From Tissierellales bacterium (lineage in GTDB: Bacteria; Bacillota; Clostridia; Tissierellales; Sedimentibacteraceae): a stretch of 64,000 nucleotides of DNA. Within the stretch, counting starts at the first letter, position 1; every line of letters begins with the position of its first letter. Shown here piece after piece: positions 2,512 to 53,988 of the stretch. The position numbers and the translations under genes were made by a program. The stretch spans positions 124,001-188,000 of the forward strand of contig JAHDQO010000001.1 in NCBI GenBank assembly GCA_018433765.1, in the 5' to 3' direction. Under the pieces are notes generated by a model that did no database searches, had not been told where the DNA came from, and worked only from the letters and a program-made list of their open reading frames with translations.

Positions 2512-2528
2512 CAAAAAATTTGAGAAAA

Positions 2529-2560
2529 ATGCGGAAAGTTAATACTTTCCGTATTTTTTT
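2529..2560 (+). terminator. Rho-independent terminator after thiolase
   Basis: An 11-bp stem (ATGCGGAAAGT pairing with ACTTTCCGTAT, one G-U pair) with a TAAT loop runs straight into seven T residues, 18 bases after the stop codon. Confidence 0.9.
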
Positions 2561-2656
2561 GATGAAATTTTTTTATTGCTAAAACATTTTAAAATATTTA
2601 TTATATAGTTATAGATAATTATAAATTACTAATATTTAATTGGGAGGCTGATTATT

Positions 2657-3478
2657 CTGAGAGTAAAAATAGGACTATGTCAAATGAAAATTGTTGATGA
2701 TAAAAAGGTAAATATAGAAAAAGCTGATAAAATGATATTAGATACAGTTAAAAGGGGTGCAAATTTTGTGTGCTTACCAGAAATTTTTAATTGTCCATAT
2801 GGCAATGAGTATTTTCCTAAATATGCAGAAAAAGAAGGTGAGCAAACATTTATTTTTCTTTCTGAAACTGCTAAAAAACATAAAATATATTTAATAGGTG
2901 GATCAATTCCCGAGCTTGATAATAATAAAATATATAATACTAGTTATGTATTTAATCCAAAAGGAGAATTGATAGGTAAACATAGAAAAGTGCATTTATT
3001 TGATATTGAAGTAGAAAATAAAATAAGATTTATGGAATCAGATGTTCTTTCAGCAGGAAATAACTTAACAGTTATAGATACAGAATATGGTAAAATAGGA
3101 GTAGCCATATGTTTTGATATTAGATTTGTTGAATGGTTTAGGCTTATGACGCTAAATGGAGCAAGATTAATATTTTTGCCTGCAGCTTTTAACATGATTA
3201 CAGGGCCGGTACATTGGGAACTTTCTTTTAGAGCCAGAGCTGTAGATAATCAAGTATTTATGGTAGGTTGTGCTCCTGCAAGAGAAAGTAATTTTTCATA
3301 TGTTTCATATGGAAATTCTGTCATTGTAAATCCTTGGGGTGAGACAGTTGCGAGACTTGATGAAAAAGAATCAACTATTGTTAGAGAAATAGATTTAGAT
3401 ATGGTAGAAAAAATTAGAGAACAAATTCCTATACTTAAAAATAGGAGAACAGATTTATACGAAATAAACAAAAAATAA
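2657..3478 (+). CDS. Nit2-like omega-amidase (nitrilase superfamily), probable CTG start
   Basis: Carbon-nitrogen hydrolase resembling omega-amidases that hydrolyse alpha-ketoglutaramate and related omega-amides. The Glu-Lys-Cys triad is visible: Glu42 in LPEIF, Lys111 in HRKVHLF and Cys152 in AICFDIRF. The first ATG (2684) would cut off the conserved first strand (RVKIGLCQM). In frame upstream there is no ATG, GTG or TTG. A GGGAGG site at 2642-2647 lies 9 bases before CTG 2657 and 6 before ATT 2654, so I place the start at CTG, giving 273 residues. Residue numbers then fall within one of those I recall for mammalian Nit2. It stands alone between two terminated units. Confidence 0.85.
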   Translation: MRVKIGLCQMKIVDDKKVNIEKADKMILDTVKRGANFVCLPEIFNCPYGNEYFPKYAEKEGEQTFIFLSETAKKHKIYLIGGSIPELDNNKIYNTSYVFNPKGELIGKHRKVHLFDIEVENKIRFMESDVLSAGNNLTVIDTEYGKIGVAICFDIRFVEWFRLMTLNGARLIFLPAAFNMITGPVHWELSFRARAVDNQVFMVGCAPARESNFSYVSYGNSVIVNPWGETVARLDEKESTIVREIDLDMVEKIREQIPILKNRRTDLYEINKK

Positions 3479-38150: not shown

Positions 38151-39845
38151 TCAAACTAAATGATTATTGCTTAACATATCATATATTTTAATAGAAATTT
38201 CTAGACTTAGTTTATCATCGTAATTATCAAAATTAACACCTGTAATTTCTTTAATCCTGTTCATTCTATATGTAATTGTATTGTAATGAGTATACATTTT
38301 TTCTGAAACTTTTTTTAAATTCCTTCCGCACTCAAAATATTTTCTTAGAGTTTCAACTAAGTTAGTACCTTTTCGTTTATCATACTCTACCAAAGGTTCT
38401 AAACTTTCTTTATAAAACTCCTGCAGCTCAGGTTTAAGATAATCATATGATAATATCCTGTATATGCCCAAATCATCATAATGGATCGGTTTAGAGTTCA
38501 TTTTGTCCTTAGAATATTCTACAGCTCTGTTTGCTTCTTTATAACTTTTACATATTCTAGCTGTTTCATTATAACATCTTCCAATGCCCATAGATATATT
38601 GACATTTACAGATTCTTTATTAATATTAATAAATATATCTTTACAAAAGTTCATTATTTTATTTTTATAGTTATTAATTCCTGATTTTAAACCATATAGT
38701 ATTATTAATCTATCACTTTTATTACCATATATAACATTACCATCCATATACTTTATTAACCTATTAATTATATTTAAAAGCTTTACATTTAAATACTGCA
38801 AATATGTGTCGTTGTATGAAGTGTAATTTTTTGAGTGATTAAAGTTTTCTAATGCAATCACAATTACAGCATAACTAAACTCTGGATTAAAACCAAAATA
38901 TGAAGCTCTTTCCAATGCTTTATTATGTCTAGTTTCATCACTTGAAAATAAATCTTCTAAAAATTCTATCTTATATTTACTTTCAATTTCAAAGATAGAT
39001 AGTCTTTTTACTAGATCTAATGCGACTATAGAAGTAGATGCTTCAATAACAGTAAGTTCAATAGCAGTCATAGGCTTCTTGTCTTCCCATATGTACATAA
39101 ATCCATAATTAGTGTTCTTAGTATAAATAGGTATTTTGATTCTTTCAATATTCTTTCCATTAATCACATCTGTTTCTTTATTATTAATATCATAACTATA
39201 CTTAGTATAGCTAAAATAAATATTTTCTTTTTTATCTCTTTCTTTATATAAAATTTGCTGAATTTGTACTCGTATTGAATCATCACAGTAAATAATATTA
39301 GAACCAAAAATATTTTCTACTATTGCAAATGAATTACCTATACTTTCATGAATGGCATATCCAATTTGTTCGAGATTACCGCCTTTAAGCATTACATTTA
39401 TTAAAGTATTGTGCATATTATCAATTTTATAAATGAGCTTAATTTGTTTGTCGATTATTTCAGTTAAAGCAGGCATCATTATTTCAGAATGTGATACTTT
39501 TTGGGGTATTTCTATAAGTGGAAAATCCAATTTATCAGCTGTATCCAGTATATATTTAGGAACCTCTTTTATGTATCTTTTAGTCTTAATTCCTATTCCT
39601 GTTATATGTTTGTTATTTAACTGCTTTATAAGTTCATCTAGCTTGCTTATATCATCTTTAATAGAATAAGCAGTTGTAATCAAAAATTCTCCGCTGCCAA
39701 CCCAATTAATAATATCAGGTACTTCCATAACATTAACCTTATATATTCTTCTATCTAAGCCTCCTTCTCCTGCTAATACTTTAGCTTGTTTCATAACTTC
39801 TAAACTTAATAACTCCTTTACTGTAATACCTGAAGATTTCAACAT
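38151..39845 (-). CDS. pucR: PucR family transcriptional regulator
   Basis: A 564-residue regulator. The N-terminal PucR domain (GITVKELLSLEVMKQAKVLA, then NVMEVPDI, GEFLITTAYSI) covers residues 1-125; a central GGDEF-like/CdaR-type region spans about 290-420; and a C-terminal HTH_30 (VETLRKYFECGRNLKKVSEK, then HYNTITYRMNRIKEITG) covers 495-560. Homologues control purine and other nucleobase catabolism. The start at 39845 has GGTGG upstream; five upstream codons were excluded. It is divergent from the AllH-F-G-like operon, and a 46-bp block shared by two promoters nearby is a candidate target. Confidence 0.92.
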   Translation of the reverse strand: MLKSSGITVKELLSLEVMKQAKVLAGEGGLDRRIYKVNVMEVPDIINWVGSGEFLITTAYSIKDDISKLDELIKQLNNKHITGIGIKTKRYIKEVPKYILDTADKLDFPLIEIPQKVSHSEIMMPALTEIIDKQIKLIYKIDNMHNTLINVMLKGGNLEQIGYAIHESIGNSFAIVENIFGSNIIYCDDSIRVQIQQILYKERDKKENIYFSYTKYSYDINNKETDVINGKNIERIKIPIYTKNTNYGFMYIWEDKKPMTAIELTVIEASTSIVALDLVKRLSIFEIESKYKIEFLEDLFSSDETRHNKALERASYFGFNPEFSYAVIVIALENFNHSKNYTSYNDTYLQYLNVKLLNIINRLIKYMDGNVIYGNKSDRLIILYGLKSGINNYKNKIMNFCKDIFININKESVNVNISMGIGRCYNETARICKSYKEANRAVEYSKDKMNSKPIHYDDLGIYRILSYDYLKPELQEFYKESLEPLVEYDKRKGTNLVETLRKYFECGRNLKKVSEKMYTHYNTITYRMNRIKEITGVNFDNYDDKLSLEISIKIYDMLSNNHLV

Positions 39846-40184
39846 ATTTACACCACCCATTTATTATTATTTTACTTTGCATGTTTGTAAAGCTTAAATA
39901 AATATTCTTTCCTTTCCCCTAAATACATAAAAAATCTCCATTTTATATCTATAATTCTATATTTTGAAACATCTTACTAATATTATATACTTGCATTTAT
40001 TTAAATACAAACTCTATCAGATTAAATATTTATGTACTGTGTAGATTAATAAATAATCTCATTTTGTGAAGTTATTACAAAATAGTCTGCTTAATCTTGT
40101 TAACTATTAATAGAGATTATTATTTAGTGATGATGTATGCTATATATGTAGATAAAATCAATGTATCAAAGAGGACTTGATAAT
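39846..40184. other. Divergent regulatory region between pucR and the carbamoyltransferase operon
   Basis: Holds no gene. It contains the conserved block at 40062-40107 and AT-rich DNA with candidate -10 elements for both directions, none with a convincing -35 partner. Confidence 0.6.
40062..40107 (+). promoter_or_regulatory. Conserved 46-bp operator/promoter block, copy 1
   Basis: Begins TTTTGTGAAGTTATTACAAA, an inverted repeat TTTTGT/ACAAAA, and ends TAATCTTGTTAACTAT. It matches 46599-46644 at 38 of 46 positions, with the mismatches grouped in the middle spacer. It lies about 80 bp before the first gene of the operon. The most likely binder is the adjacent PucR protein; TTGTTA could serve as -35. 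Confidence 0.7.
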
Positions 40185-41156
40185 ATGACTGCATTACAAA
40201 TATGTAGCAAATTAAGAAGTGAAATAGATAATAATCAGGTTAAATATGGATATATATTTTCAGTTTTTAAAAATGCATGTAATATCATTTCAAATAATAA
40301 TGAACTAATAACTTTTCTATTATCTGAAAAAAATATAGGCCCAATGGCAATCTCAATGAGCGGTATAGATAGTATTTTAAATTTAGGATTAAAAAAAAAT
40401 GAAGAAGTTATATTTAACAAAAACAGTATCTCAATAAGTAAAAGTAATTTTAAATTAGATTTATCAGAAGTATCGATATGGGATATAAAACCATGTTTTG
40501 AATACAAGAAAGCTAATGAACAGGATTTAAAAAGAAAGGTACAAAAATTTGAAGAACTGTTACTTAAATATGGAGAAAAACAGGGAATGGGGTATCTCGT
40601 ATTATCAATAAAAGATTATATTAATGATTTAGATACATTTGATAAGAAGAGTATATCATTAAATTCTAATTATAGTTTCATAATAGATAATTTTTTAGAG
40701 TTTCTTAAAAATGTAATCAGCAGTGATTTTGATAATGTAGAAAAGTCTGCTAAAAAAATAATAGGATTTGGACCGGGATTAACTCCATCTATGGATGATT
40801 TTATTACAGGATTAATGGTTTCTTTAATATACTTATGTCATTATTTTGAGCTTGATATGGAAAAAACATATAAATTCAATAGAATGATTATTGGTTCTAT
40901 AAAAAATAGAACTACATTAATAAGCGAATCAATGCTAGTGCATGCTTGCAATGGATATGTAATGGAAAGTTTAAGAACTTGCATTGTTTCATTGTTATCT
41001 GATACAAGTGAAAAAGACATGAGTAAAAAAATTATTGATGTAATATCGTTTGGCAGTACTTCTGGAACTGATATGCTTTATGGAGTGTATATAGGAAGTA
41101 AAATAATGATTAATAAAAAAATTGGAGGTGGTTTTAAAAATGATAATAAACACTGA
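40185..41156 (+). CDS. allH: DUF2877/AllH-like subunit of an oxamate-type carbamoyltransferase
   Basis: A 323-residue protein of the DUF2877 family (YlbF of the E. coli allantoin region). The conserved block IIGFGPGLTPSMDDFITGLM sits near residue 200, and SFGSTSGTDMLYGVYIG near the C-terminus. As I recall, allF-allG-allH were assigned to oxamate carbamoyltransferase, which turns oxalurate and phosphate into oxamate and carbamoyl phosphate. I place the start at ATG 40185 with AAGAGGA 9 bases upstream. The FdrA gene overlaps its end by 17 bp. Diverged from E. coli, so the ureido substrate may differ. Confidence 0.8.
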   Translation: MTALQICSKLRSEIDNNQVKYGYIFSVFKNACNIISNNNELITFLLSEKNIGPMAISMSGIDSILNLGLKKNEEVIFNKNSISISKSNFKLDLSEVSIWDIKPCFEYKKANEQDLKRKVQKFEELLLKYGEKQGMGYLVLSIKDYINDLDTFDKKSISLNSNYSFIIDNFLEFLKNVISSDFDNVEKSAKKIIGFGPGLTPSMDDFITGLMVSLIYLCHYFELDMEKTYKFNRMIIGSIKNRTTLISESMLVHACNGYVMESLRTCIVSLLSDTSEKDMSKKIIDVISFGSTSGTDMLYGVYIGSKIMINKKIGGGFKNDNKH

Positions 41157-42696
41157 AATTAAAAAAAATACTTATTATGATTCAGTAACCTTAATGCTCA
41201 TTTCAAAGGAAATAAAGAAAATTGATGGAGTAAAAGAAGCATTAGTGGGAATGGGTACTGATTTAAATAAAGAGCTGGCAGTGAACCTTAATATTTCAAC
41301 AGATGAAATACAAGAGCTAGGTGTAAATGACTTTTTTATATCTGTACTATCAGAGAGTGCTGTAGATATGAATGAGATTATAAAAAAAGTAAATGAATTA
41401 TTAACACAGAGAAAGGGTGATACAGCTTCTGATTATATGCCGCCTACTATAGATTCTGCTCTTAAGCATCAGCCAGAATCAAACATAGCATTAATATCAG
41501 TTCCGGGTAAATATGCAGCAGAAGAAGCAAAAAAAGCTCTGGAAAACAATCTTCATGTAATGCTTTTTAGTGATAATGTAACTATTGAAGAGGAAAAAGA
41601 ATTAAAAGAAATGGCTAATGAAAAAGGATTGTTGATGATGGGACCTGACTGCGGTACTTCAATAATAAACAATGTACCATTAGCTTTTGCAAATGTAGTT
41701 AGAAAGGGCAGTATAGGAGTAGTTGGAGCTTCAGGAACTGGTACACAGGAGGTTACAGTTATAATTGATAAGCTTGGCGCTGGTGTATCTCAAGTAATAG
41801 GTACTGGTGGAAGAGACTTAAGAAGTGAAATTGGCGGTATTACAATGATTCAAGGAATTGAAGCACTTATAAATGATCCTAACACTAAAGTTATAGTTCT
41901 AATTTCAAAACCTCCAGCTCAAGATGTAGCTGAAAAGGTATTAAAGGCTATACATGATTCATTAAAACCTGTTGTAGTTGATTTCATTGGTGGAGATGAC
42001 AAATTAATTAAAAAATACGGAGCATATCCATGTAAGTCATTAGAAGATGCCGCATATAAAGCTGTTTCATTAGCAAGAGGAGAAGAAGTAAAAGATTTTG
42101 AAGGATTTACAAAAAGTGATGATGAGATAAATGCAATAATAGAAGAGCATGTAAGCAAATTCAGTAAAGAACAAAAATATCTTAGAGCTTTATATACTGG
42201 AGGTACATTAGCTGATGAGGCTATGAAACTTTTAAGCGGCAATATAGATGGAATCTACTCCAATATTCCATTGAGTCCAGAATATAAACTTACAGATATT
42301 AAAAAAAGTATTAAGAATACTTGTATAGATTTAGGAGATGATGAGTTCACTGTAGGAAAACCTCATCCAATGATTGATCCTATTGCTAGAACTGAGCGTA
42401 TAGTAGAAGAAGCAAATGATGATGAAGTTGCAGTCATCTTGATGGACTTTGTATTGGGTTATGGTTCTCATGAAGACCCTGTAGGTGAAATGCTGCCTTC
42501 AATAAATAAAGTAAAAAAAATAATGATTAAAAAGGGTAAACATTTATGTATTGTAGGTTCTATATGTGGTACTGATAAAGATTACCAGAACTTAAAAGAT
42601 TCTAAGCGTAAACTTGAAGAAGCTGGAGTAGTGGTTATGCCGTCAAATGCTCAAGCAGTAAAATTAGTAGCTAAGATATTAGAAAAGATTCAATAA
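41140..42696 (+). CDS. fdrA: FdrA/AllF-like acyl-CoA synthetase-fold subunit
   Basis: A 518-residue protein with the fold of the succinyl-CoA synthetase alpha and beta parts. GPDCGTSIINNVPLAFANVV and GVVGASGTGTQEVTVIIDKL (about residues 165-205) form the nucleotide/CoA-like Rossmann region, and HPMIDPIARTERIVEEAND near 405 holds the phospho-His-type motif of the ligase family. ATG 41140, with GGAGGTGG about 10 bases upstream, is preferred over TTG 41122, which overlaps that site. It ends about 35 residues shorter than I recall for E. coli FdrA; a separate 56-residue ORF with an FdrA/YlbE-like sequence follows. It probably acts with AllH and AllG as one complex. Confidence 0.88.
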   Translation: MIINTEIKKNTYYDSVTLMLISKEIKKIDGVKEALVGMGTDLNKELAVNLNISTDEIQELGVNDFFISVLSESAVDMNEIIKKVNELLTQRKGDTASDYMPPTIDSALKHQPESNIALISVPGKYAAEEAKKALENNLHVMLFSDNVTIEEEKELKEMANEKGLLMMGPDCGTSIINNVPLAFANVVRKGSIGVVGASGTGTQEVTVIIDKLGAGVSQVIGTGGRDLRSEIGGITMIQGIEALINDPNTKVIVLISKPPAQDVAEKVLKAIHDSLKPVVVDFIGGDDKLIKKYGAYPCKSLEDAAYKAVSLARGEEVKDFEGFTKSDDEINAIIEEHVSKFSKEQKYLRALYTGGTLADEAMKLLSGNIDGIYSNIPLSPEYKLTDIKKSIKNTCIDLGDDEFTVGKPHPMIDPIARTERIVEEANDDEVAVILMDFVLGYGSHEDPVGEMLPSINKVKKIMIKKGKHLCIVGSICGTDKDYQNLKDSKRKLEEAGVVVMPSNAQAVKLVAKILEKIQ

Positions 42697-42714
42697 TAAT
42701 CGGAGGTGGCTGAA

Positions 42715-42885
42715 GTGAATAAGATAAATGATTTATTCAATGAAGAATTGAAGGTCATAAATATAGGGTTAGAATCTTTTTACAAAGATTTAAAAGATCA
42801 AGATATAAAAACTATACATGTTAAATGGAGACCTACAGCTGGTGGTAATAAAAAAATTGCTTCTTTATTATCAAAATTGAAGTAA
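42715..42885 (+). CDS. Small FdrA/YlbE-associated protein (56 aa)
   Basis: The GTG start has CGGAGGTGG in front. The product begins NKINDLFNEELKVINIGLES and contains KTIHVKWRPTAGGNKKI. This VINIGLESFY...WRPxAGGN pattern is, in my memory of the family, part of the start of larger YlbE/FdrA-type proteins, so here the segment seems to be a free-standing subunit. It lies 18 bp after fdrA and 27 bp before allG, surely in the same operon. Confidence 0.75.
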   Translation: MNKINDLFNEELKVINIGLESFYKDLKDQDIKTIHVKWRPTAGGNKKIASLLSKLK

Positions 42886-42912
42886 AAATAATTAAATTAA
42901 GGAGCTGATAAT

Positions 42913-44169
42913 ATGATTCAAGAAAAAATTGCTAAAGCAAATGAGGAAGCTATTGAGAGAGTTTTAAATGCTCAGCCAACTTTATTAGCAATAGGTAAGG
43001 CAGAAAAAGATATTCCTGGAATGACTAAAAAGACTGTATTACATGCAGGGCCGCCTATTACATGGGAGAATATGAGCGGGCCATTAAAAGGAGCAGTTAT
43101 AGGAGGATTAATCTATGAAGGTTTAGCTAGAGATGAGAAAGAAGCAGTAGAGTTAGCAAAGTCAGGAGAGATTATTTTTGATTCATGCCATCATCATAGT
43201 GCAGTAGGTCCAATGGCAGGAGTAGTAACAGCTTCTATGCCTGTATGGGTTCTAGAAAATAAGACTTTTGGAAACAAATCATATTGTACATTAAATGAAG
43301 GACTAGGAAAAGTTTTGCGTTATGGTGCTTACAGCCAAGAAGTTATTGATAGACTTAAGTGGATGGAGAATGTTCTAGCACCAGTACTAAAAGTTGCATT
43401 AGAACTTTCAGGACCAATTGATTTAAAAACAATGATTGCTCAAGTTGTTCAAATGGGAGACGAAGGGCATAACAGAAATAAAGCTGGAACATCTCTATTA
43501 ATTAGAGAATTAGCACCATATATTGTTAAAACTCAATTTACATTAGATGAAAAATCAGAAGTTCTAAAGTTTATGCATAGTAATGACCATTTCTTCTTGA
43601 ATTTAACTATGCCAGCTTGTAAATGTACTATGGATCCAGCTGGAGGAATTAAGTACAGTACTTTAGTATATACAATGGCTAGGAATGGTACTGAGTTTGG
43701 TATAAGAGTATCAGGACTAGGTGATAGATGGTTTACAGCACCTGCTGAAATAATAGATGGCTTATATTTCCCAGGTTATACTACTAAAGATGCTAATCCT
43801 GATATTGGAGACAGCTGTATAACTGAAACCACAGGTATTGGCGGCTTTGCAATGGCAGCAGCTATTCCTATAGTTCAGTTTGTGGGAGGAACTCCAAAAG
43901 ATGCATTGAACTATACAACTCAGATGTATGAAATAACTCTTAGTGAAAACAATGCATATAAAGTTCCAGCATTAAACTTTAGAGGAACTCCAACAGGTAT
44001 TGATATTCAGAAAGTTTTAGAGACAGGAATATTACCAATAATAAATACCGGTATTGCACACAAAAATCCAGGCGTAGGTCAAGTAGGTGCAGGTTTAGTA
44101 CATCCACCACAAAAATGTTTTGAAGATGCACTAGAAGCTTTTGTAGAAGATATTGAAAAAACGAATTAA
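42913..44169 (+). CDS. allG: DUF1116/AllG (YlbE)-like carbamoyltransferase subunit
   Basis: A 418-residue cytosolic protein of the YlbE/DUF1116 family. Recognisable blocks are VLHAGPPITWENMSGPLKGA (residues 38-57), FDSCHHHSAVGPMAGV (near 95), GDEGHNRNKAGTSLL (near 190) and KNPGVGQVGAGLVHPP near the C-terminus. Its His-rich segment may supply active-site residues. In the assigned E. coli system this protein acts with AllF and AllH to make carbamoyl phosphate; a carbamate kinase would then yield ATP, but none is encoded in this window. Confidence 0.88.
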   Translation: MIQEKIAKANEEAIERVLNAQPTLLAIGKAEKDIPGMTKKTVLHAGPPITWENMSGPLKGAVIGGLIYEGLARDEKEAVELAKSGEIIFDSCHHHSAVGPMAGVVTASMPVWVLENKTFGNKSYCTLNEGLGKVLRYGAYSQEVIDRLKWMENVLAPVLKVALELSGPIDLKTMIAQVVQMGDEGHNRNKAGTSLLIRELAPYIVKTQFTLDEKSEVLKFMHSNDHFFLNLTMPACKCTMDPAGGIKYSTLVYTMARNGTEFGIRVSGLGDRWFTAPAEIIDGLYFPGYTTKDANPDIGDSCITETTGIGGFAMAAAIPIVQFVGGTPKDALNYTTQMYEITLSENNAYKVPALNFRGTPTGIDIQKVLETGILPIINTGIAHKNPGVGQVGAGLVHPPQKCFEDALEAFVEDIEKTN

Positions 44170-44193
44170 AATAAAAAGTTAGGAGGTATTGAT

Positions 44194-45084
44194 GTGAAAG
44201 AGCATATAGCTGCATGTGTTCAAATAGCCATAGAACATAATAATATAAAAAATAATATTGATAAAGTATGTCACTGGTTAAAGAAGGCTGCTAAAGAGTA
44301 TGAAGCTGAGCTAATAGTATTTCCTGAAACAATCACAACTGGCTTTACTCCTAACATGGATATAAATGAATTTTATGAAATGCTGGAACCAGTACCGGGT
44401 AATCATACAAAAGATGTACAAAAACTAGCTAAAGAATTAGGCGTACACGTCATTTATCCGTTATATGAGAGAGGAAAAGAATACGGCACAATATTAAATA
44501 GTTCTTTATTAATAGATGATAATGGAGAAGTATTAGGTAATTACAGAAAAACTCATCCTTTCCCAACTGAAAGAAAAGAAGGAGGAGGATGGACTACTCC
44601 TGGTAAAGAAACAGTAGTAGTTAATACTAAGCTTGGTAAAATAGGAATGATTATCTGCTATGATGGAGATTTCCCAGAGCTTAGCAGAGTTCTTGCATTA
44701 AATGGAGCAGAAATTATTACTCGTCCTTCAGCTTTATTAAGAAGTTATGAAATATGGGAAATAACTAATAAGGCTAGAGCCTATGATAATCATGTGTATG
44801 TTTTAGCAGCTAATTCCGTTGGATCAGATGCAGGAAACAATTATTATTTTGGTCACAGTATGATAGTAAGTCCGATTGCTCAAACATTAGCATTAGCAAG
44901 AGGTGCTGAAGAAATAATAGCAGCTAAGCTGGATCCTAATCCTATAAAATATGTTAGCTATGGTACTAAAACACCAATGATATTTGACCATATTGAAGAT
45001 AGAAATGTAGGAGTATACGGAGATATTCTAAAAGAAGGAAAAAGTAGTTTTGAACCTTCACAAAGAATCATGTATAAAAAATAA
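44194..45084 (+). CDS. Carbon-nitrogen hydrolase (nitrilase superfamily amidase)
   Basis: A 296-residue amidase with the full triad: Glu45 in VFPETITTGF, Lys119 in YRKTHPFPTER and Cys155 in IICYDGDFPE. The ICYDGDFPE form and the length resemble aliphatic or carbamoyl amidases rather than nitrile hydrolases. GTG start with AGGAGG in front, 24 bp after allG. In the proposed route it would hydrolyse the amide left after carbamoyl transfer (malonamate, or oxamate in the alternative) to acid and ammonia. The paralogue at 2657 is a distinct Nit2-type enzyme. Confidence 0.88.
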   Translation: MKEHIAACVQIAIEHNNIKNNIDKVCHWLKKAAKEYEAELIVFPETITTGFTPNMDINEFYEMLEPVPGNHTKDVQKLAKELGVHVIYPLYERGKEYGTILNSSLLIDDNGEVLGNYRKTHPFPTERKEGGGWTTPGKETVVVNTKLGKIGMIICYDGDFPELSRVLALNGAEIITRPSALLRSYEIWEITNKARAYDNHVYVLAANSVGSDAGNNYYFGHSMIVSPIAQTLALARGAEEIIAAKLDPNPIKYVSYGTKTPMIFDHIEDRNVGVYGDILKEGKSSFEPSQRIMYKK

Positions 45085-45373
45085 GATAAAAGTTAAAAGT
45101 GAAAAGTTTAAAGTTATGGAAGTTTTACTACGTAAAACACCAAATTAAAAATAATATAAGGTACTTCGACTAACATTCAGGATGACTCGATATCTTCCTT
45201 CTGGGTTTAGTAAGTAAGTGGCTAATACCAAACAGCACTCTGATTGCGATAAACACGAAATTGAAAATTTATATAAAATAAATAAGTAAGATTTACGAAG
45301 AATGAGTAAATCAACATTTAACTATCAACTATACACTATTAACTATCAACTATTATTGGTGGGGGTGATTATT
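45085..45373. repeat. Degenerate repeat-derived intergenic segment
   Basis: Contains an altered copy of the palindrome (GGAAGTTTTACTACGTAAAAC, 45119-45139), a GC-richer unstructured stretch (45162-45255) and direct repeats of AACTATCAACTAT (45318-45352), also seen at 7495-7530. No gene is seen. It separates the CoA-transferase from the upstream genes but carries no clear terminator. Confidence 0.55.
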
Positions 45374-46561: not shown

Positions 46562-46908
46562 CTTTATTAATTATTCAGAGTAGTTCTATTGTCTAGCAGT
46601 TTGTGAAATTATTACAAAACAATTTTCATAATCTTGTTAACTATCTCCAAAGTAAATTTTCTATTGATGGTGTATTATGTATTTAATTATAAAATATAAT
46701 TTATTTTCCAAATCATAGATATATTATCTTATATAAAAATCTAAAAATTAACTTTAGCAATTTATATTCAAAAAAGCTTATCTAAAATTTAAAAATTAAT
46801 TCATAAATAAGTTCTTATTAAATTATTCTACATACAAACATTTTATTTTTATCAAAACATTTAAGAGCCTTAAATTCAAAGTAAAAATCATAATAGGAGG
46901 AGATTTTA
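46562..46908. other. Regulatory region before the cyclase-xdh operon
   Basis: No gene. It holds the second copy of the conserved block at 46599-46644; the rest is AT-rich, with no clear terminator for the CoA-transferase gene. Confidence 0.6.
46599..46644 (+). promoter_or_regulatory. Conserved 46-bp operator/promoter block, copy 2
   Basis: Begins GTTTGTGAAATTATTACAAA and ends TAATCTTGTTAACTAT, matching 40062-40107 at 38 of 46 positions. It lies about 265 bp before the cyclase gene, giving a long leader if transcription starts nearby. It ties the two halves of the catabolic cluster to one regulator. Confidence 0.7.
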
Positions 46909-47700
46909 ATGTTAAGTAATTGGAAAAATGTAAAAATGTACGATTTAACTCAAAAACTTAGTCATTTAACACCACCATGGCCAACATATGAGCCATTACA
47001 AATCAAATTTTTTAAAAGATTATCACCAAATGGAGCTAACGGGCAATTGATTACTACTTCAAACCATGTGGGAACTCACTTAGATGGTCCAATGCATTTT
47101 GACACATCAGGTGGAGATATAGCATCTTTACCATTAGAAAAATTAGTAGCACCTGGTGTAATAGCAGACATATCAGATATTGCCGAAGATTATGGAATTT
47201 ATACTCCGAAGGATATTATGGATAGAGCCGAAGTTAAAAAAGGTGACATATTAATTATAAATACTGGATATCACAAATACGGTTGGGACCAGCCAGAAGC
47301 AGATGAAAGAAGATATATGCTTAGACATCCCGGCCCATCAATGGATTTTGTGGATTGGGTAAAAGAAATGGAAATAAAATGGATAGGCGTTGACTGCGGT
47401 TCAGCTGATCATCCTATGAATACAAAAATTAGAGATTGGGAACCGGGAGAAGCAGTAAAAGCTGATGAATACTTAAAGAATAAATATGGAAAAGGGCTAG
47501 ATGAAATTTACCATTGGCCTAATACATATCAAGCAATGCACGTACAAGTATTTCCAAAACCTTATGAAATAATCCATGCAGAAAATTTAGGTGGAGATAT
47601 AGATAAGTTATCAGGAAAAAGAGTAATAATAGGATGTTTCCCATGGAGATTTGAAGGTGGGGAATCTAGTATTTGTAGAATAGTCGCTTTTGATGAATAA
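46909..47700 (+). CDS. Cyclase family metal-dependent hydrolase
   Basis: A 263-residue protein of the cyclase/kynurenine formamidase/isatin hydrolase family. The metal motif HVGTHLDGPMHF supplies His53, His57, Asp59 and His63. A second block, GVDCGSADHPMNT, lies near residue 163. Relatives hydrolyse amide bonds, including the cyclic amide of isatin, which makes ring opening of a heterocycle such as barbiturate plausible here. AGGAGGAG precedes the ATG. The xanthine-dehydrogenase-type genes follow 32 bp later, so both probably act on one substrate. Confidence 0.88.
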   Translation: MLSNWKNVKMYDLTQKLSHLTPPWPTYEPLQIKFFKRLSPNGANGQLITTSNHVGTHLDGPMHFDTSGGDIASLPLEKLVAPGVIADISDIAEDYGIYTPKDIMDRAEVKKGDILIINTGYHKYGWDQPEADERRYMLRHPGPSMDFVDWVKEMEIKWIGVDCGSADHPMNTKIRDWEPGEAVKADEYLKNKYGKGLDEIYHWPNTYQAMHVQVFPKPYEIIHAENLGGDIDKLSGKRVIIGCFPWRFEGGESSICRIVAFDE

Positions 47701-47732
47701 AAAATTATTTTAAGCTAGTAAGGAGGTTAATT

Positions 47733-48563
47733 ATGAATTCAGTTGAATATTATAGTCCAACATCATTGAAGGAAGCTCTAAATTTACTAGCGGCTTACGG
47801 AGAAGAAGCATCTATATTAAATGGAGGAACAGATTTAATTGTTCGGATGAGAGAAGGTCAATCTAAACCGAAAGTTATTGTTGATATTAAGAAAATTGAT
47901 GAACTTCACAAGATAGAAATAGAAGATAATTATGTCTTTATTGGTGCATGTGTGCATTTAAATGATTTGGGAAAACATCAATACATTATAGAAAAATATC
48001 CATTCTTAGCTAAAGCTGCTTTATCCATAGGATCAAATCAGGTAAGAAATAGAGCAACATGTATTGGAAACATCTGCAATGCGTCTCCTTTAGCTGATAC
48101 AGCAACACCTCTGCTTTCATTAAATGCTGATGTTCACATTTATAGTGAAAATGGCTTAAGAACAGTACCGTTGAATCAATTCTTTGTATTTGTTAGAAAG
48201 ACTATTTTAAAGCAGGATGAAATTGTTACAGGCATTTCATTTGAAGATGATGATAGTATTTTAGGTGTTTTTTACAAAATGTCTAGAAGAAAAGAAGTAG
48301 ATTTATCAACAGTTTGTTCTACGGTTATTAAGTCTAATAAAGGTTATTTTGTAAGTTATGGAGCAGTAGCACCTACACCAGTTCGATTGTATAAAACAGA
48401 ATCATTTTTAAATGAAAACACTTTATCGCAAGAAACTATTAAGGAAGCGTGCATGATAGCATCTCAAGAAGTGTCGCCAATAAGTGATATAAGAGCAACT
48501 GAAAAATATAGAAGAGAAATAGTTGAAGTTACGTTGCAAAATTCACTTTTAGAGTGGCTTTAG
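47733..48563 (+). CDS. xdhB: Molybdenum hydroxylase, FAD-binding subunit
   Basis: A 276-residue medium subunit of a xanthine dehydrogenase-family enzyme, passing electrons from the iron-sulfur subunit to its acceptor. FAD-binding blocks: ILNGGTDLIVRMREG (about residues 30-44) and IGSNQVRNRATCIGNICNAS (about 100-119), then SPLADTATPLL. It lacks the flavin-adjacent [4Fe-4S] insert of benzoyl-CoA reductase-type homologues. AAGGAGG precedes the ATG. Subunit order FAD, Fe-S, Mo is that of CO dehydrogenase/nicotinate dehydrogenase-like operons. Confidence 0.93.
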   Translation: MNSVEYYSPTSLKEALNLLAAYGEEASILNGGTDLIVRMREGQSKPKVIVDIKKIDELHKIEIEDNYVFIGACVHLNDLGKHQYIIEKYPFLAKAALSIGSNQVRNRATCIGNICNASPLADTATPLLSLNADVHIYSENGLRTVPLNQFFVFVRKTILKQDEIVTGISFEDDDSILGVFYKMSRRKEVDLSTVCSTVIKSNKGYFVSYGAVAPTPVRLYKTESFLNENTLSQETIKEACMIASQEVSPISDIRATEKYRREIVEVTLQNSLLEWL

Positions 48564-48576
48564 GAGGATTAATAAT

Positions 48577-49047
48577 ATGAAAAAAACAATTAATTTTATA
48601 TTAAACGGAGAGCCTGTAGAGCATGCTGTAGATACAAATAAAACTCTCTTAAAAATGTTAAGAGAGGATTTTGATTTAACGGGTACTAAAGAAGGCTGTG
48701 GTGCAGGTGAATGCGGCGCATGCACCGTAATAATGGATGGTAAAGCTGTAAATTCATGCCTTGTGTTAGCTGTTGAATCAGAAGGTAAAGACATTTTAAC
48801 TATTGAGGGTCTAACAGTTAATGGAGAGCTAGACCCTCTTCAAACATCATTCGTTGAAAATGCAGCTTTGCAGTGCGGCTATTGTACACCGGGAATGATT
48901 ATGACAGCTAAAGCAATGCTAAATGAAAATCCAAATCCTTCACTTGATGAAATAAAAGAAGGTATTAGCGGAAATCTATGCCGCTGTACAGGATATAAAA
49001 AGATTATAGAAGCAATCCATAGTGTTGCTGAGCAAAATAATTCATAG
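48577..49047 (+). CDS. xdhC: Molybdenum hydroxylase, [2Fe-2S] subunit
   Basis: A 156-residue small subunit with both clusters complete. Plant-ferredoxin-type cysteines are 41, 46, 49 and 61 (EGCGAGECGACTV to NSCL), and the all-helical C-terminal cluster uses 100, 103, 135 and 137 (QCGYCTPGM and LCRCTGY). It carries electrons from the molybdenum centre to FAD. GGAGG precedes the ATG, 13 bp after the FAD subunit gene and 12 bp before the catalytic subunit gene. Confidence 0.96.
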   Translation: MKKTINFILNGEPVEHAVDTNKTLLKMLREDFDLTGTKEGCGAGECGACTVIMDGKAVNSCLVLAVESEGKDILTIEGLTVNGELDPLQTSFVENAALQCGYCTPGMIMTAKAMLNENPNPSLDEIKEGISGNLCRCTGYKKIIEAIHSVAEQNNS

Positions 49048-49059
49048 GAGGTAGAATCC

Positions 49060-51369
49060 TTGAAATATGTTGGAAAAAGCGTAAAAAGAGTTGATGGTAT
49101 TAAAAAGGTAACAGGGTCTTTAAAATATGTTGACGATATTAAACTATCTAAAATGCTTTACGCAGCTGTTAAAAGAAGTCCGTATGCTCACGCCAATATT
49201 GTAAACATAAATATAGAAAGAGCTAAAGCTTTAAAAGGTGTTAAAGACATTATTACAGGAGATCTTTTTACTAAAAGAGCTGGACTTTATTTAGAAGATA
49301 AGAATTTTTTAGCAGTTGGAAAAGCAAGATATAATGGAGAAGCAGTAGCAGCAGTTTGTGCAGAAACTGAAGAAATAGCACAGGAAGCTGTAAATCTTAT
49401 AGAAGTTGAATATGAAGTATTACCTGCCGTAACAAATGCTAAAGATGGTATGAAGAAAAATGCACCTTTAGTACATCCTGATTTGGGCGATTATAAATGT
49501 GCACCAGTATTTTTCCCTGAGCCGGGTACTAATATTTCTAATCACTATAAGCAGAGAAAAGGAGATGCACCAAAAGCATTTGAAGAAGCATATTATGTTA
49601 TTGAAAATACATTCTATGTTCCACATGTACAGCACGTTCCGATAGAACCACATACAGCTATTGCTCAAATGGATGCTGATGGTTGTTTAACTGTTTGGTC
49701 ATCTTGTCAGTCACCATATGCTGTTAGGCAGTCGTTATCAGTTGCATTTGATATACCTCTCAATAAACTTCGTGTCATTTCACCAGCTGTTGGCGGCGGT
49801 TTTGGTTCAAAGGCTGGAACGACATTAGAAGGAATCATCATTCCTTTAGCAATGCGTTTGCGGGGAAGACCTATAAAACTAACTTATACACGTGAAGACG
49901 AATTTCAAAATGCATATGTACGACAAGGGCTTCACTCAAAAATAAAGACAGCTGTTAATAAAGAGGGTAAGATTACAGCTGTTCAAAATGAGTTTATTTG
50001 GGATGGAGGTGCATATACAGAATATGGTGTAAATATTGCTAAAGCTGCAGGTTATGCATCTACAGGACCATATGATATTGATAATGTATGGACAGATTCT
50101 TATTGTGTGTATACAAATCATCCAGTAGGCGGACCTTATAGAGGGTTTGGTATGTGTGAAATACATTTTTGTATTGAGCAGAATTTGGACATTGTTGCAG
50201 AAGAAATAGGCTTAACACCATATGAGATAAGAAAAATTAATGGAATGAAGCCGGGAGGCACTACCGGTACTGGAGAATTAGTAACTCAATCGGGATTGAT
50301 GGAATGTCTAGAACAAGTTTCTGCTGACATTAAGATAAACGAAAAAAGCAAATTATCTTCATCGAAAAAAGTTCGTGGTAAAGGAATTGCCTGCGGCTGG
50401 AAATCACCATCAATGCCTAATGATGCTGGTTCTTCTGCCATAATTAAATTAAATGAAGATGGAACAGCTCATTTACTAGTTAGTGCTCAAGATATCGGAC
50501 AGGGCTCTGATACAGTCATGACGCAGATTGCTGCAGAGGTATTATCAATTTCACCTGACAAAATTACAATTAGAACAGGTGATACTGATTGTACACCATA
50601 CGAATGGCAGACAGTTGCATCAAGAATTACATACTCAGCAGGACGTGCAGTATACGAAGCATGTCAAGATGCAAAGAGCCAGCTTTTAGAATTATCCCAA
50701 ATTAAACTTGGTATTTATGAAAGAGATTTAAAATTAAAAGATGGTTATGTTGTTTCTAAAATTTATCCAGATAAAAAAATAGCTATTGCTGATTTAGCAT
50801 TAGGGTTAACCTTTGATGATGGCTCAGGAATACATGGACCTATTATTGGCAGAGGGTCATTTATACCACCTAACATAAGAAATGCTGACAAGCATACAGG
50901 TTTAGGAGAACATCCAGTCGCATATTGGACATATGGTGTTCAAGGTGTTGAAGTTGAAGTAGATATAGAAACTGGTGAAACAAAAGTTTTAAAGGTTGCT
51001 TCATGCTTTGATGTAGGTAAAGTTATAAATCCTCAATTAATAGAAGGTCAAGTTGAAGGAGCTATTTTGCAAGGTATGGGAACAGCACTATTAGAGGAGC
51101 TTATGCTTAAAGACGGCAAAGTTATGAATCCATCTTTTGTAGATTATAAGATTCCAACGTCTGGTGATATACCTGAAATGATTATTAAATTCGTAGAAAA
51201 TCCAGAAGAAACTGGGCCTTTTGGTGCAAGAGGCGTTGCAGAACCTGCAATGGTACCAACTGCTCCAGCTATTGCGAATGCCATTTATGATGCAACTGGT
51301 ATTCGTCTAAATACAATGCCTATGACTGCTGAAAAAATACTATCAGCAATCAAAGCAAAAGAAATTTGA
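49060..51369 (+). CDS. xdhA: Molybdenum hydroxylase, molybdopterin catalytic subunit
   Basis: A 769-residue large subunit that hydroxylates a carbon next to ring nitrogen using water. Cofactor blocks: VGGGFGSKAGTTLEG (near 245), GPYRGFGMCEIHF (near 360), AQDIGQGSDTVMTQIAAE (near 480). The base Glu728 is in GARGVAEPAMVPTAP. Substrate-channel residues differ from textbook xanthine dehydrogenase as far as I can judge, so xanthine is not assured; uracil or another N-heterocycle fits the neighbours. TTG start with TAGGAGG 8 bases upstream. Confidence 0.92.
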   Translation: MKYVGKSVKRVDGIKKVTGSLKYVDDIKLSKMLYAAVKRSPYAHANIVNINIERAKALKGVKDIITGDLFTKRAGLYLEDKNFLAVGKARYNGEAVAAVCAETEEIAQEAVNLIEVEYEVLPAVTNAKDGMKKNAPLVHPDLGDYKCAPVFFPEPGTNISNHYKQRKGDAPKAFEEAYYVIENTFYVPHVQHVPIEPHTAIAQMDADGCLTVWSSCQSPYAVRQSLSVAFDIPLNKLRVISPAVGGGFGSKAGTTLEGIIIPLAMRLRGRPIKLTYTREDEFQNAYVRQGLHSKIKTAVNKEGKITAVQNEFIWDGGAYTEYGVNIAKAAGYASTGPYDIDNVWTDSYCVYTNHPVGGPYRGFGMCEIHFCIEQNLDIVAEEIGLTPYEIRKINGMKPGGTTGTGELVTQSGLMECLEQVSADIKINEKSKLSSSKKVRGKGIACGWKSPSMPNDAGSSAIIKLNEDGTAHLLVSAQDIGQGSDTVMTQIAAEVLSISPDKITIRTGDTDCTPYEWQTVASRITYSAGRAVYEACQDAKSQLLELSQIKLGIYERDLKLKDGYVVSKIYPDKKIAIADLALGLTFDDGSGIHGPIIGRGSFIPPNIRNADKHTGLGEHPVAYWTYGVQGVEVEVDIETGETKVLKVASCFDVGKVINPQLIEGQVEGAILQGMGTALLEELMLKDGKVMNPSFVDYKIPTSGDIPEMIIKFVENPEETGPFGARGVAEPAMVPTAPAIANAIYDATGIRLNTMPMTAEKILSAIKAKEI

Positions 51370-51408
51370 CGAGAATAAGCATCATATTTATCTAAGAGGA
51401 GGGTATAT

Positions 51409-52629
51409 ATGGAATCAGAAAAAAGTATTACAGCTATTAGAGACGCCTCACAATTAGGAAAGCCTAAAATGCTAATACTTGGCTTGCAGCATACATTTAC
51501 AATGTTTGGTGCAACCGTATTAGTACCTATCGTAACAGGTCTAGATGTTTCAGTCGCATTATTCTTAGCAGGAATAGGAACATTAATTTTTCATTTAATT
51601 ACTAGAGGAAAGGTACCAGCTTTTTTGGGTTCATCATTTGCATTTATAGCTCCAATTTTAGCAGTTGCTGAATCGCACGGATTAGAATTTGCAAGAGGCG
51701 GAATTTTTGTAGCAGGTATAGTATATTTGATTCTTGCTGTTTTAATACAGATATTCGGTACTGAAAAAGTAATCAGATTCTTTCCACCAGTAGTTACAGG
51801 ACCTATCATTATCGTAATAGGTTTTAAACTAGCTCCAACTGCAATTCAAATGGCTTCTTCTGACTGGCTGCTTGCAGTTATTGCACTTATTATTGTAATA
51901 GCAGTTAGTGTATATACAAAAGGATTCTTAAAGATTATACCAGTTATTGTAGCATTATTTGCAACATATATAATTGCAGTAATTTTAGGAAGAGTTGATT
52001 TTACAGAAGTTAGTCAGGCAAAGATGCTTGGATTACCTGCATTTTCTTTTGCAAAATTTGAATTAAGTGCTATTTTAACTGTAGCACCAATTGCATTAGC
52101 TACTATGATAGAACACGTTGGTGATGTAATTGCTATAGGTGCAACTGTTGAAAAGGACTTTATAAAAGACCCGGGTTTAAGCAAAACATTATTAGGTGAT
52201 GGTATTGCTACATCTATTTCTGCACTTTTTGGTGGACCTGCAAACACTACTTATTCTGAAAATATTGGAGTATTAGCACTTACAAAGGTTTGGGATCCAA
52301 AAATTATGAGAATTGCAGCAGTATTTGCAATTGCACTAGGTTTAATTCCTAAACTCGGTGCTTTAATTTCTACTATACCTGATGCAATTATTGGCGGTGT
52401 ATCAATAATTTTATTCGGTATGATCGCAGCAGTAGGTAAGAGAACACTTGTTGAAAATAAAGTAAATCTAAATAAGTCTAGAAACCTTATTATAACTGCT
52501 GTAATAGGCGTATTAGGCCTAGGTGGTGCGGCATTGAATTTCAATATAGGAACTATTTCTGTAAATATTGAAGGAATGGCTTTAGCTGCTATAGTAGGAG
52601 TTATATTGAATATTATTTTACCAGAATAA
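51409..52629 (+). CDS. uraA: UraA-like nucleobase:cation symporter-2 permease
   Basis: A 406-residue membrane transporter of the NCS2 family with 14 helices. The start LILGLQHTFTMFGATVLVPI, the segment VPAFLGSSFAFIAP near residue 70 and the NAT signature region (LFGGPANTTYSENIGVLALT, about 265-284) are present. The Q-H and TYSENIG forms resemble uracil permeases more than the xanthine/urate members. GAGGAGGG precedes the ATG. It follows the molybdenum hydroxylase genes by 39 bp, and a terminator closes the unit. Confidence 0.93.
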   Translation: MESEKSITAIRDASQLGKPKMLILGLQHTFTMFGATVLVPIVTGLDVSVALFLAGIGTLIFHLITRGKVPAFLGSSFAFIAPILAVAESHGLEFARGGIFVAGIVYLILAVLIQIFGTEKVIRFFPPVVTGPIIIVIGFKLAPTAIQMASSDWLLAVIALIIVIAVSVYTKGFLKIIPVIVALFATYIIAVILGRVDFTEVSQAKMLGLPAFSFAKFELSAILTVAPIALATMIEHVGDVIAIGATVEKDFIKDPGLSKTLLGDGIATSISALFGGPANTTYSENIGVLALTKVWDPKIMRIAAVFAIALGLIPKLGALISTIPDAIIGGVSIILFGMIAAVGKRTLVENKVNLNKSRNLIITAVIGVLGLGGAALNFNIGTISVNIEGMALAAIVGVILNIILPE

Positions 52630-52650
52630 TATATTTGTTTTAGTAATTAC

Positions 52651-52690
52651 TAAATCGGCAAAAGTCCTCTTCTTTTGCCGATTAATTTTA
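52651..52690 (+). terminator. Terminator after uraA-like gene
   Basis: A perfect 12-bp stem (AATCGGCAAAAG and its complement) with a 7-base loop is followed by AATTTTA. Strong hairpin, weak T-run. Confidence 0.8.
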
Positions 52691-52752
52691 TATAGAAAAT
52701 TATACGAAGTTTTCGTGATATGAAGTTTCCAATATAATAGGAGGATAATAAT

Positions 52753-53988
52753 ATGGATTTAATAATTAAAAATGCTAAATTAAGAGAAAATAATTATCTT
52801 ATAGATATTGGTATAAAGAATGGAATAATTGTAGATTTAAATAAAGAAATTAAGAATGAAAGTGTTGAAGTGATTAATGCATGCGGAAAATTAACAATAC
52901 CAGCATTTATAGATCCTCATATTCATTTAGATAAAGCTTTAATGAACGAAAATGTTAGAGCAAATGAATCAGGTACATTAGAGGAAGCCATTGAAATATT
53001 ATGGGATAAAAAAGCAAACTATACTATAGAAGATATTGTTAGTAGAGCAGGCGAAATAATGAAACAAGCTTTAATTAATGGTACAACAAGAATGAGGAGT
53101 CATGCTGATGTTGATACTATTGGGGGTCTTGTTCCTGTAGAAGGTCTTATAAAGGCTAAGAAGCTGTATTCGGATTTGGTAGATTTAGAAATAGTTGCAT
53201 TTCCGCAAGAAGGAATACTTAAGAATCCGGGTTGTGAAAAATTGATGTATAAATCTATGGAAATGGGCTGCGATTTAGTAGGCGGAATGCCTGCTAATGA
53301 GCTTACACCAGAAGATAGTATAGCTCATGTAAAAATAGTGTTTGATATAGCACAAAAATTTGATGCCAACATAGATATGCATGTTGACGAAACTGACGAT
53401 CCTTTTTACAAAACTTTAGAAATGGTTGCAGATGAAACATTAAAGAGAGGTTATCAAGGAAAGGTTACAGCTGGACACACTTGTGCCTTATCAGCCTATG
53501 ATGATCACTATGCCCAATATGTAATGGATAAGGTTAAAAAGGCAGAAATTAATATTATTACCAATCCTGTAACAAATTTAATGCTGCAGGGTAGATTAGA
53601 TAAGCAGCCTATTAGGAGAGGGTTGACTAGGGTAAAAGAATTATTAAGCAGAGGAATTAATATGGCATATGGACAGGATTGTATTAAAGATACCTTCTAT
53701 CCATTTGGAAGAGCAGATATGCTCGAGGTAGGACTTATAACAGCTCATGCAGCTCATATGAGTATACCTTATGAAATAAGAACTGTATTTAACATGCCCC
53801 TTGAAAATTCAGCAAAAATCTTAGAGTTAGATGATTACGGAATAAGTGAAGGTAAAAGGGCTGATATAGTTGTGTTAGATGCTGATAATGAGATTGATGC
53901 AATAAGAACTCAAGCTGATAGATTATTTGTTATAAGAAAAGGAAAAATCATGGCAAGTACAAAAAGGGAGGTTATTGTTAATTTTTAA
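52753..53988 (+). CDS. Cytosine deaminase-like amidohydrolase
   Basis: A 411-residue metal-dependent amidohydrolase of the CodA/AtzC type. Metal ligands: His56 and His58 in DPHIHLDK, the His in NIDMHVDETDD (about residue 216), the His in TAGHTCALS and Asp in AYGQDCIKD (about 315). The HVDETDD motif, with Glu after the third His region, is that of cytosine deaminase, releasing ammonia from cytosine to give uracil. N-substituted triazine or creatinine-type substrates are possible. A terminator separates it from uraA, but it lies 123 bp downstream on the same strand. Confidence 0.88.
   Translation: MDLIIKNAKLRENNYLIDIGIKNGIIVDLNKEIKNESVEVINACGKLTIPAFIDPHIHLDKALMNENVRANESGTLEEAIEILWDKKANYTIEDIVSRAGEIMKQALINGTTRMRSHADVDTIGGLVPVEGLIKAKKLYSDLVDLEIVAFPQEGILKNPGCEKLMYKSMEMGCDLVGGMPANELTPEDSIAHVKIVFDIAQKFDANIDMHVDETDDPFYKTLEMVADETLKRGYQGKVTAGHTCALSAYDDHYAQYVMDKVKKAEINIITNPVTNLMLQGRLDKQPIRRGLTRVKELLSRGINMAYGQDCIKDTFYPFGRADMLEVGLITAHAAHMSIPYEIRTVFNMPLENSAKILELDDYGISEGKRADIVVLDADNEIDAIRTQADRLFVIRKGKIMASTKREVIVNF

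Follow-up and report, generated by a model that had tools for sequence, protein, structure and literature searches.

We analysed a 64,000-nucleotide stretch of DNA from a Tissierellales bacterium (GenBank assembly GCA_018433765.1, contig JAHDQO010000001.1, positions 124,001 to 188,000 of the forward strand), hereafter the window. A gene cluster at 38151–53988 of the window probably allows its anaerobic host to break down a uracil-type pyrimidine, meaning uracil and perhaps thymine, by oxidation and to conserve energy in doing so. Linkage and co-occurrence of the genes support this reading strongly, and the evidence on the substrate is indirect. Gene families, conserved linkage, shared occurrence and residue patterns are what we observe, and from them we infer all substrates and reactions. 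A preliminary description, made from the letters of the window, had proposed this route and named the gene families; Pfam or NCBIfam matches place each family where it had been named.

The main block of the locus occupies one strand from 40161 to 52629, with a PucR-family regulator gene divergent from it. The three subunits of an AllFGH-type complex are encoded at its start on the plus strand: AllH (DUF2877; 40161–41156; Pfam AllH, 1.1e-25), AllF/FdrA (41122–42696; NCBIfam FdrA, 510 bits, above the cut-off of 433) and AllG (DUF1116; 42913–44169; Pfam AllG, 1.1e-104). AllF matches E. coli YahF at 46% and FdrA at 37%, and its true start probably lies some codons inside the called open reading frame (ORF), which begins with TTG at 41122. 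The same strand carries the genes of a C-N hydrolase (44194–45084; Pfam CN_hydrolase, 1.5e-52), a class III CoA-transferase (45302–46561; Pfam CoA_transf_3, 5.8e-135) and a Cyclase-family (PF04199) hydrolase (46909–47700; Pfam Cyclase, 1.1e-35). Then come the FAD subunit (47733–48563; Pfam FAD_binding_5 and CO_deh_flav_C), the 2Fe-2S subunit (48577–49047; Pfam Fer2_2 and Fer2) and the large subunit (49060–51369; Pfam MoCoBD_1/2) of a Mo hydroxylase, followed by a UraA-type nucleobase permease (51409–52629; Xan_ur_permease, 3.1e-95). The gaps from Cyclase through permease measure 12 to 39 bases, and gaps of 216, 217 and 347 bases lie 3' of AllF, the C-N hydrolase and the CoA-transferase, respectively.

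In the proposed pathway, the permease would import the base. The Mo hydroxylase, a putative uracil/thymine hydroxylase, would oxygenate C6, turning uracil into barbiturate or thymine into 5-methylbarbiturate. The Cyclase-family metallohydrolase would open barbiturate to ureidomalonate (3-oxo-3-ureidopropanoate), and phosphorolysis of this product by the AllFGH-type complex would yield malonamate and carbamoyl phosphate. From the latter, a carbamate kinase encoded elsewhere in the genome would make ATP. Meanwhile, the C-N hydrolase, as a candidate amidase, would convert malonamate into malonate, and the CoA-transferase, as a candidate malonate CoA-transferase, would form malonyl-CoA, whose loss of CO2 would leave acetyl-CoA. 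The predicted balance is uracil + 4 H2O giving acetic acid + 2 CO2 + 2 NH3 + H2, with propionate arising from thymine.

The gene arrangement is conserved far beyond chance, as judged from the Cyclase gene, which directly follows AllG in 64 of 80 related loci. These loci were obtained by scanning the window AllG against one genome per species: of the 466 relatives found, the best 80 were analysed together with flanks of up to 10 kb on either side. Their genes were labelled from blastp matches at 1e-8, with the window genes, 36 genes of E. coli and some genes taken from the loci serving as references. Where AllG is not followed by Cyclase, it is followed by a CoA-transferase (seven loci), the contig end (five), an unlabelled gene (three) or a GNAT-fold protein (one). 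In this co-occurrence survey, Cyclase is present in 72/80 loci, a homologue of the CoA-transferase in 50, a UraA-like permease in 49, at least one subunit of the Mo hydroxylase in 48, an amidase from one or the other family in 23 and a carbamate kinase in 10. Allantoin genes, whose regular presence in such clusters the preliminary description regarded as speaking against the pyrimidine route, were found in none of the 80. Contig ends leave 44 of the loci shorter than 20 kb, and absences in those loci therefore mean little; the eight loci that lack Cyclase are 4 to 13 kb long and cut by contig ends. Among the 36 loci of at least 20 kb, all have Cyclase, 30 the Mo hydroxylase and 30 the permease. 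By record title, the carriers are Clostridia, many spirochaetes and a few others, and they include the gut species Anaerotruncus colihominis. Among the carriers available in culture are Clostridium magnum DSM 2767, Maledivibacter halophilus, Alkaliphilus transvaalensis and Fusibacter tunisiensis.

The AllG–Cyclase unit is conserved at the level of whole genomes as well. AllG occurs in 24 of 391 genomes of the class, and the window type or its sister type occurs in 13 of the 391. A close Cyclase (at least 46% identity) is found in exactly those 13, in two of them (G109 and G204) as fragments only. A weak Cyclase match in G411 (33%) was excluded from this set; if it is included, the table becomes 13, 0, 1, 377. 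With a threshold of 44% identity, the large subunit of the Mo hydroxylase is present in 11 of these 13 genomes, in six of which it lies on a different contig from AllG, and in none of the other 378. With a threshold of E 1e-150 instead, the counts are 12/13 and 5/378. Both the close Cyclase and the Mo subunit are absent from the 11 genomes whose AllG is of another type. Fisher values for the genome co-occurrence are 1.5e-24 and 1.1e-19, with kinship ignored and the window's own genome in the sample.

The complex resembles the E. coli AllFGH oxamic transcarbamylase with its carbamate kinase. The same three protein families are encoded together, and we would expect the same chemistry, phosphorolysis of an acylurea to carbamoyl phosphate and then ATP. 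The differences lie in the clade of AllG and in its neighbors, since the usual partners here are Cyclase and Mo hydroxylase and the allantoin genes are missing from the 80 loci. An AllG tree of 105 rows, built by a quick method and showing long branches, places the window AllG in a clade (84 rows, support 95) whose sister is a group of four with a Cyclase at about 45% identity. E. coli AllG and three clostridial AllG lying among allantoin genes form a separate group without Cyclase (support 99); E. coli YahG belongs to neither. For this tree, the window copy L001 and AllG ORFs below 330 amino acids were left out, ORFs above 520 amino acids were trimmed to the last 480 residues, and exact duplicates were removed, although two identical pairs stayed. 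E. coli AllFGH is reported as an oxalurate-acting enzyme (PMC11326118). In nitrifiers, allFGHK is reported to lie next to biuret genes (PMC12625717), which hints that the AllFGH family may handle more than one acylurea.

As to which ring is degraded, residues of the permease and the Mo subunit, together with the Cyclase fold, favour a uracil-type ring. UraA hydrogen-bonds uracil with Glu241 and Glu290 (PMC5539350), and E235 and E284 of the window permease align with these residues. Among 49 permeases from the loci, counted with those below 330 amino acids left out, the second position is Glu in 47 and Gln in 2; in E. coli XanQ and UacT it is Gln. The best specific NCBIfam model for the window permease is uracil permease, at 378 bits, below the 477 cut-off. 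In the Mo subunit, Ala252 aligns with a Glu of the Mo enzyme in the host's purine cluster, and E. coli XdhA and XdhD have Gln there. This column, immediately after GGGFGxK, is taken by us to be that of bovine xanthine dehydrogenase Glu802. Across 46 rows of cluster-linked Mo subunits (only those above 650 amino acids, some being the same gene reached twice), it holds Ala in 44, Gly in one and Ser in one. The Arg of the RGFG motif, presumably bovine Arg880, is kept in all 46. A docking study of xanthine oxidase shows Glu802 among the residues that bind inhibitors (PMC8348919). The enzyme thus shares its three-subunit Mo/2Fe-2S/FAD make-up with XdhABC and the selenium-dependent purine hydroxylases, but its large subunit is 31% identical to E. 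coli XdhA and has Ala at the place of the xanthine-type Glu.

These residues also bear on one alternative, a purine or purine-derived cluster in which the Mo enzyme would be a xanthine-type dehydrogenase and the Cyclase would open a purine breakdown product. PucR regulators are named for purine catabolism, and YqeB/XdhC-like maturation genes, 30–56% to E. coli YqeB, occur in 22/80 loci; Clostridioides difficile requires YqeB to grow on or otherwise use xanthine and urate (PMC11448449). Purine-type permeases are found in the two Gln cases above and in the haloarchaeal clusters described below. On the other hand, the second UraA Glu is nearly constant, allantoin genes are lacking, and a YgfK or SsnA homologue is present in 0/85 loci. 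Moreover, purine genes form a distinct set in the host, and the Mo enzyme encoded there bears the xanthine-type Glu. By blastp to E. coli genes, this set comprises YgeX, YgeY, YgeW, HyuA, SsnA, YgfK, a GuaD-like protein, the Mo enzyme and two carbamate kinases. The preliminary description had seen neither allantoin genes nor a purine set, and for the window this holds: blastp of its ORFs of at least 90 amino acids against 36 E. coli all, yah and yge proteins revealed neither, nor a carbamate kinase. The purine set does lie on the same contig, however, 20–60 kb past the window end (G000:C13, 208001–248000; L151 and L152). Taken together, a purine cluster seems unlikely to us.

The Cyclase, the candidate opener of the barbiturate ring, is the sole PF04199 match in the host genome. 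Its metal residues H53, H57, D59 and H63 are identical in 92/92 rows (78 distinct), and its sequence HVGTHLDGPMH fits the isatin hydrolase metal motif HxG[T/A]HxDxPxH, of which the Pro varies among relatives. The predicted model (mean predicted local distance difference test score, pLDDT, 82.7) is nearest to isatin hydrolases, with Z 17.5–18.3 and a root-mean-square deviation of 3.1–3.3 over 223–226 aligned residues. A cyclase-phosphotriesterase (Z 16.7) and kynurenine formamidases (Z 15.8–16.3) come next, so the lead of isatin hydrolase is small. Isatin hydrolase is a cyclic amidohydrolase (PMC6117287). The window Cyclase shares fold and metal motif with isatin hydrolase and bacterial kynurenine formamidase, both of PF04199, but is 17–22% identical to them, and the isatin signature GLQC/GLAS, a motif given in the same paper, was not found in it. 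A profile of the AtzD/TrzD barbiturase family (PF09663) had no match in 20 AllG-bearing genomes, and no control genome matched it either. From the chemistry, the AllFGH-type complex needs an acylurea; opening of barbiturate would yield one, whereas opening of hydantoin or dihydrouracil would not.

Relatives of the Cyclase also occur on plasmids, of which 20 records were found and 12 examined. Eleven of them are haloarchaeal loci with a Cyclase at 47–51% identity. Most of the haloarchaeal plasmids (L162, L167–L177) carry nucleobase permeases as well. A Mo hydroxylase lies within about 20 kb in nine of the 11 (in two only on a wider look), with a Mo subunit about 26% identical to that of the window. 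A class III CoA-transferase is present in five and a cytosine deaminase in two, and in one locus a gene for a thiolase-like protein that lacks the active Cys adjoins an OB-fold gene. AllFGH was not found in the stretches seen of these 11 loci. By their gene content, the haloarchaeal loci support a nucleobase role for Cyclase and Mo hydroxylase without pointing to one base. The deaminase of L162 has Ser at what we take to be CodA position 314. On a Rhodococcus ruber plasmid, a 42% Cyclase lies beside a ring-hydroxylating dioxygenase.

For the carbon product, gene content favours a C3 compound over an oxalyl route, because methylmalonyl-CoA-decarboxylase-type genes occur in 8/80 loci, in about four lineages of the tree, and the host has no oxalyl-CoA decarboxylase above the cut-off (its two matches reach 214 and 204 bits, the cut-off being 739, which one control genome exceeds). 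Such decarboxylase-type genes fit a malonyl- or methylmalonyl-CoA product. They are on the same strand and close by in L035, L042, L051, L061 and L062. In A. colihominis and a sister species (L035, L042), the CoA-transferase, the amidase and a decarboxylase alpha-type gene stand in a row, followed by PucR and AllHFG. In the spirochaete loci L051 and L061, genes for alpha, OadG-like, biotin carrier and Na+-pump beta proteins lie between the Mo hydroxylase and AllF, and the Na+-pump beta protein of L051 scores above its cut-off. Elsewhere in its genome, the host itself carries a single complete Na+-pump beta gene, plus two fragments at contig ends. A homologue of Gcl, the sole oxalyl-CoA-decarboxylase relative in the E. 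coli reference set, is present in none of the 80 loci.

This evidence touches the oxalurate route, which the preliminary description had named as its alternative. In that route, the substrate would be a five-membered ring, turned into parabanate and on to oxalurate by the Mo enzyme and the Cyclase; AllFGH would produce oxamate and carbamoyl phosphate, and oxamate would pass through oxalate to oxalyl-CoA. We know of no natural parabanate source and count this against the route. E. coli AllFGH has indeed been shown to act on oxalurate (PMC11326118), and CoA:oxalate CoA-transferase is among the best models for the CoA-transferase, at 360 bits, below the 522 cut-off. The missing oxalyl-CoA decarboxylase and Gcl-like gene, the malonyl/methylmalonyl-CoA-type decarboxylases that some relatives have instead, and the UraA-type permease argue against it, which makes the oxalurate route rather improbable. 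Least probable of all is another N-heterocycle (hydantoin, creatinine, pterin or another substituted pyrimidine) degraded along the same phosphorolytic lines: Cyclase, amidase and CoA-transferase all belong to broad families and the deaminase-like protein of the locus need not use cytosine, but the acylurea needed by AllFGH would, on chemical grounds, not come from hydantoin or creatinine, and the permease residues favour uracil.

Several observations weigh against the uracil-type route. Among the loci of at least 20 kb, the six without a Mo hydroxylase in the stretch are L019, L035, L042, L048, L068 and L077, and the six without a UraA-like permease are L023, L030, L035, L042, L048 and L051; the decarboxylase-bearing Anaerotruncus loci L035 and L042 thus lack both. 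The decarboxylase-type genes are divergent in L055 and L057 and lie 6 kb off in L032, and the two decarboxylase alpha proteins that were scanned reach 848 and 790 bits, below the 999 cut-off. The CoA-transferase stays below all specific cut-offs and resembles oxalate- and glutarate-type enzymes alike. In the permease, His245 of UraA is replaced by Asp (EHVGD against EHVGH). Thirteen AllG positions are unlike the allantoin type and give no clear sign of a larger pocket, some being bulkier in the allantoin type (G185 to F, A315 to I, T361 to L) and some smaller; this comparison has four allantoin-type sequences only and is not used as evidence. The haloarchaeal clusters hold a purine-type permease and a dihydropyrimidinase/allantoinase-like amidohydrolase (8/11), and so could be purine clusters. 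Finally, blastp of the window ORFs found no carbamate kinase in the locus. The preliminary description had ATP come from this enzyme; three carbamate kinases above the cut-off are encoded in the genome, two of them (C13:220112 and C13:233712) among the purine genes on the same contig, so ATP formation would rely on kinase genes outside the locus. The route proposed there otherwise fits the conserved linkage, the Glu pair of the permease, the Ala of the Mo subunit and the decarboxylases of relatives. Its end of amidase and CoA-transferase is only one of several ends among relatives.

One different end involves a thiolase-like protein, encoded in 14/80 loci (L036, L040, L043–L046, L048–L050, L073, L074, L076, L079 and L080). 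Each of these is without a CoA-transferase of the window type, and the two never occur together. Of the 14 loci, 13 also encode an OB-fold protein and 12 a 230-amino-acid protein, all three proteins being labelled in 11. The 230-amino-acid protein has a GNAT fold in its model (pLDDT 82.3; best Z 12.6). A PDB profile search with it gave no match at E up to 1, and a search of the 391 genomes, run without a positive control, gave none. In all 14 loci (15 rows, one protein twice), the thiolase-like protein has no nucleophile Cys and has Asn for the second Cys, while the His of the GHP motif is kept; the roles of these residues are presumed by us from thiolases. Our guess is that the GNAT/thiolase-like/OB-fold set might carry out a CoA-dependent cleavage and decarboxylation of malonamate.

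The oxidative pyrimidine pathway of aerobic actinobacteria proceeds through uracil/thymine dehydrogenase, barbiturase and ureidomalonase. We know of no gene for its first enzyme, and anaerobic pyrimidine breakdown is, to our knowledge, a reductive route only. An anaerobic oxidative route was not found in the literature searched, in which few subscription journals are covered. In the host, PreA of the reductive pathway has no match above the cut-off (best 258.6 against 335 bits). The oxidative route has been described in a small number of bacteria, with barbiturate, ureidomalonate and malonate as intermediates (PMC3758960), and the intermediates proposed here are the same. In contrast, the proposed ring opener here is a PF04199 Cyclase rather than an AtzD/TrzD-family barbiturase, and ureidomalonate would be phosphorolysed rather than hydrolysed to malonate and urea. 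If the uracil-type route is true, the locus provides candidate genes for uracil oxidation without O2 and a new barbiturate hydrolase. It would also give a second substrate to a carbamoyl-phosphate-forming enzyme for which a 2024 paper reported the genes (PMC11326118).

A wider joint reading is possible, and we offer it tentatively. It would comprise a so far undescribed fermentation of uracil, thymine and perhaps 5-methylcytosine. The Mo hydroxylase would be of a new type and form (5-methyl)barbiturate, the Cyclase-family enzyme would represent a new class of barbiturate hydrolase, and the relative of AllFGH would phosphorolyse (methyl)ureidomalonate to carbamoyl phosphate. In some lineages, a Na+-pumping malonyl-/methylmalonyl-CoA decarboxylase would add a second energy step. 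In Clostridium and some others, the set of GNAT protein, Cys-less thiolase and OB-fold protein would take malonamate straight to acetyl-CoA, CO2 and ammonia, saving a thioester, and haloarchaea would run the same front end by hydrolysis without AllFGH.

At the borders of the locus lie the regulator and a deaminase-like gene. The PucR-family regulator (38151–39860, minus strand; Pfam PucR, 1.3e-34, with HTH_30 and GGDEF_2) has a homologue in 39/80 related loci. Downstream of the permease, a terminator-like stem of 12 pairs (52653–52683, plus strand; consensus scan only) precedes a cytosine-deaminase-like amidohydrolase gene (52753–53988, plus strand; 404 bits, below the 438 cut-off); the scan of the region found seven such sites against 5.6 expected. 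The stem suggests that the deaminase-like gene is a unit of its own. The gene is present, as the preliminary description had it, but we regard it as peripheral because the stem splits it off from the permease and only 3/80 relatives have a homologue. Its protein has Cys and Phe at the positions aligned with Asp314 and Trp319 of CodA, in a numbering that we take to be correct, and therefore need not act on cytosine. For this protein, as for the CoA-transferase and the permease, every specific NCBIfam match is below the cut-off of its model.

Other types of AllG neighbourhood were noticed as well. The sister AllG type (L134, L135, L136 and L140) has a Cyclase at 44–46%, a C-N hydrolase in two of the four loci and a XanQ-like permease in three, the two permeases read being of Gln type. 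The stretches of these four loci hold no Mo hydroxylase, and the sister type maybe acts on a ring needing no oxidation. The genomes concerned also hold window-type AllG or Cyclase genes. Distant relatives of AllG and AllF (32–44% identity) are found in other neighbourhoods in L142–L149. AllG is present in 192 plasmid records, of which one was examined. On a plasmid of Peptoclostridium acidaminophilum (L164), AllHFG is accompanied by a carbamate kinase, a cysteine hydrolase and two xanthine-annotated permeases, without Cyclase; this is possibly another acylurea route. Relatives of the Mo subunit occur in 391 plasmid records, and the two examined (Rhizobium, 38%; Rhodococcus, 36%) have no Cyclase, AllFGH or nucleobase permease nearby. 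A Lachnospiraceae variant (L077) combines AllHFG–Cyclase with GuaD-like and cytosine-deaminase-like genes, a carbamate kinase and an orotidine-phosphate decarboxylase gene. In the window itself, upstream of the locus at 1333–3478, a weakly thiolase-like gene (22%) adjoins a C-N-hydrolase-like gene (31%).

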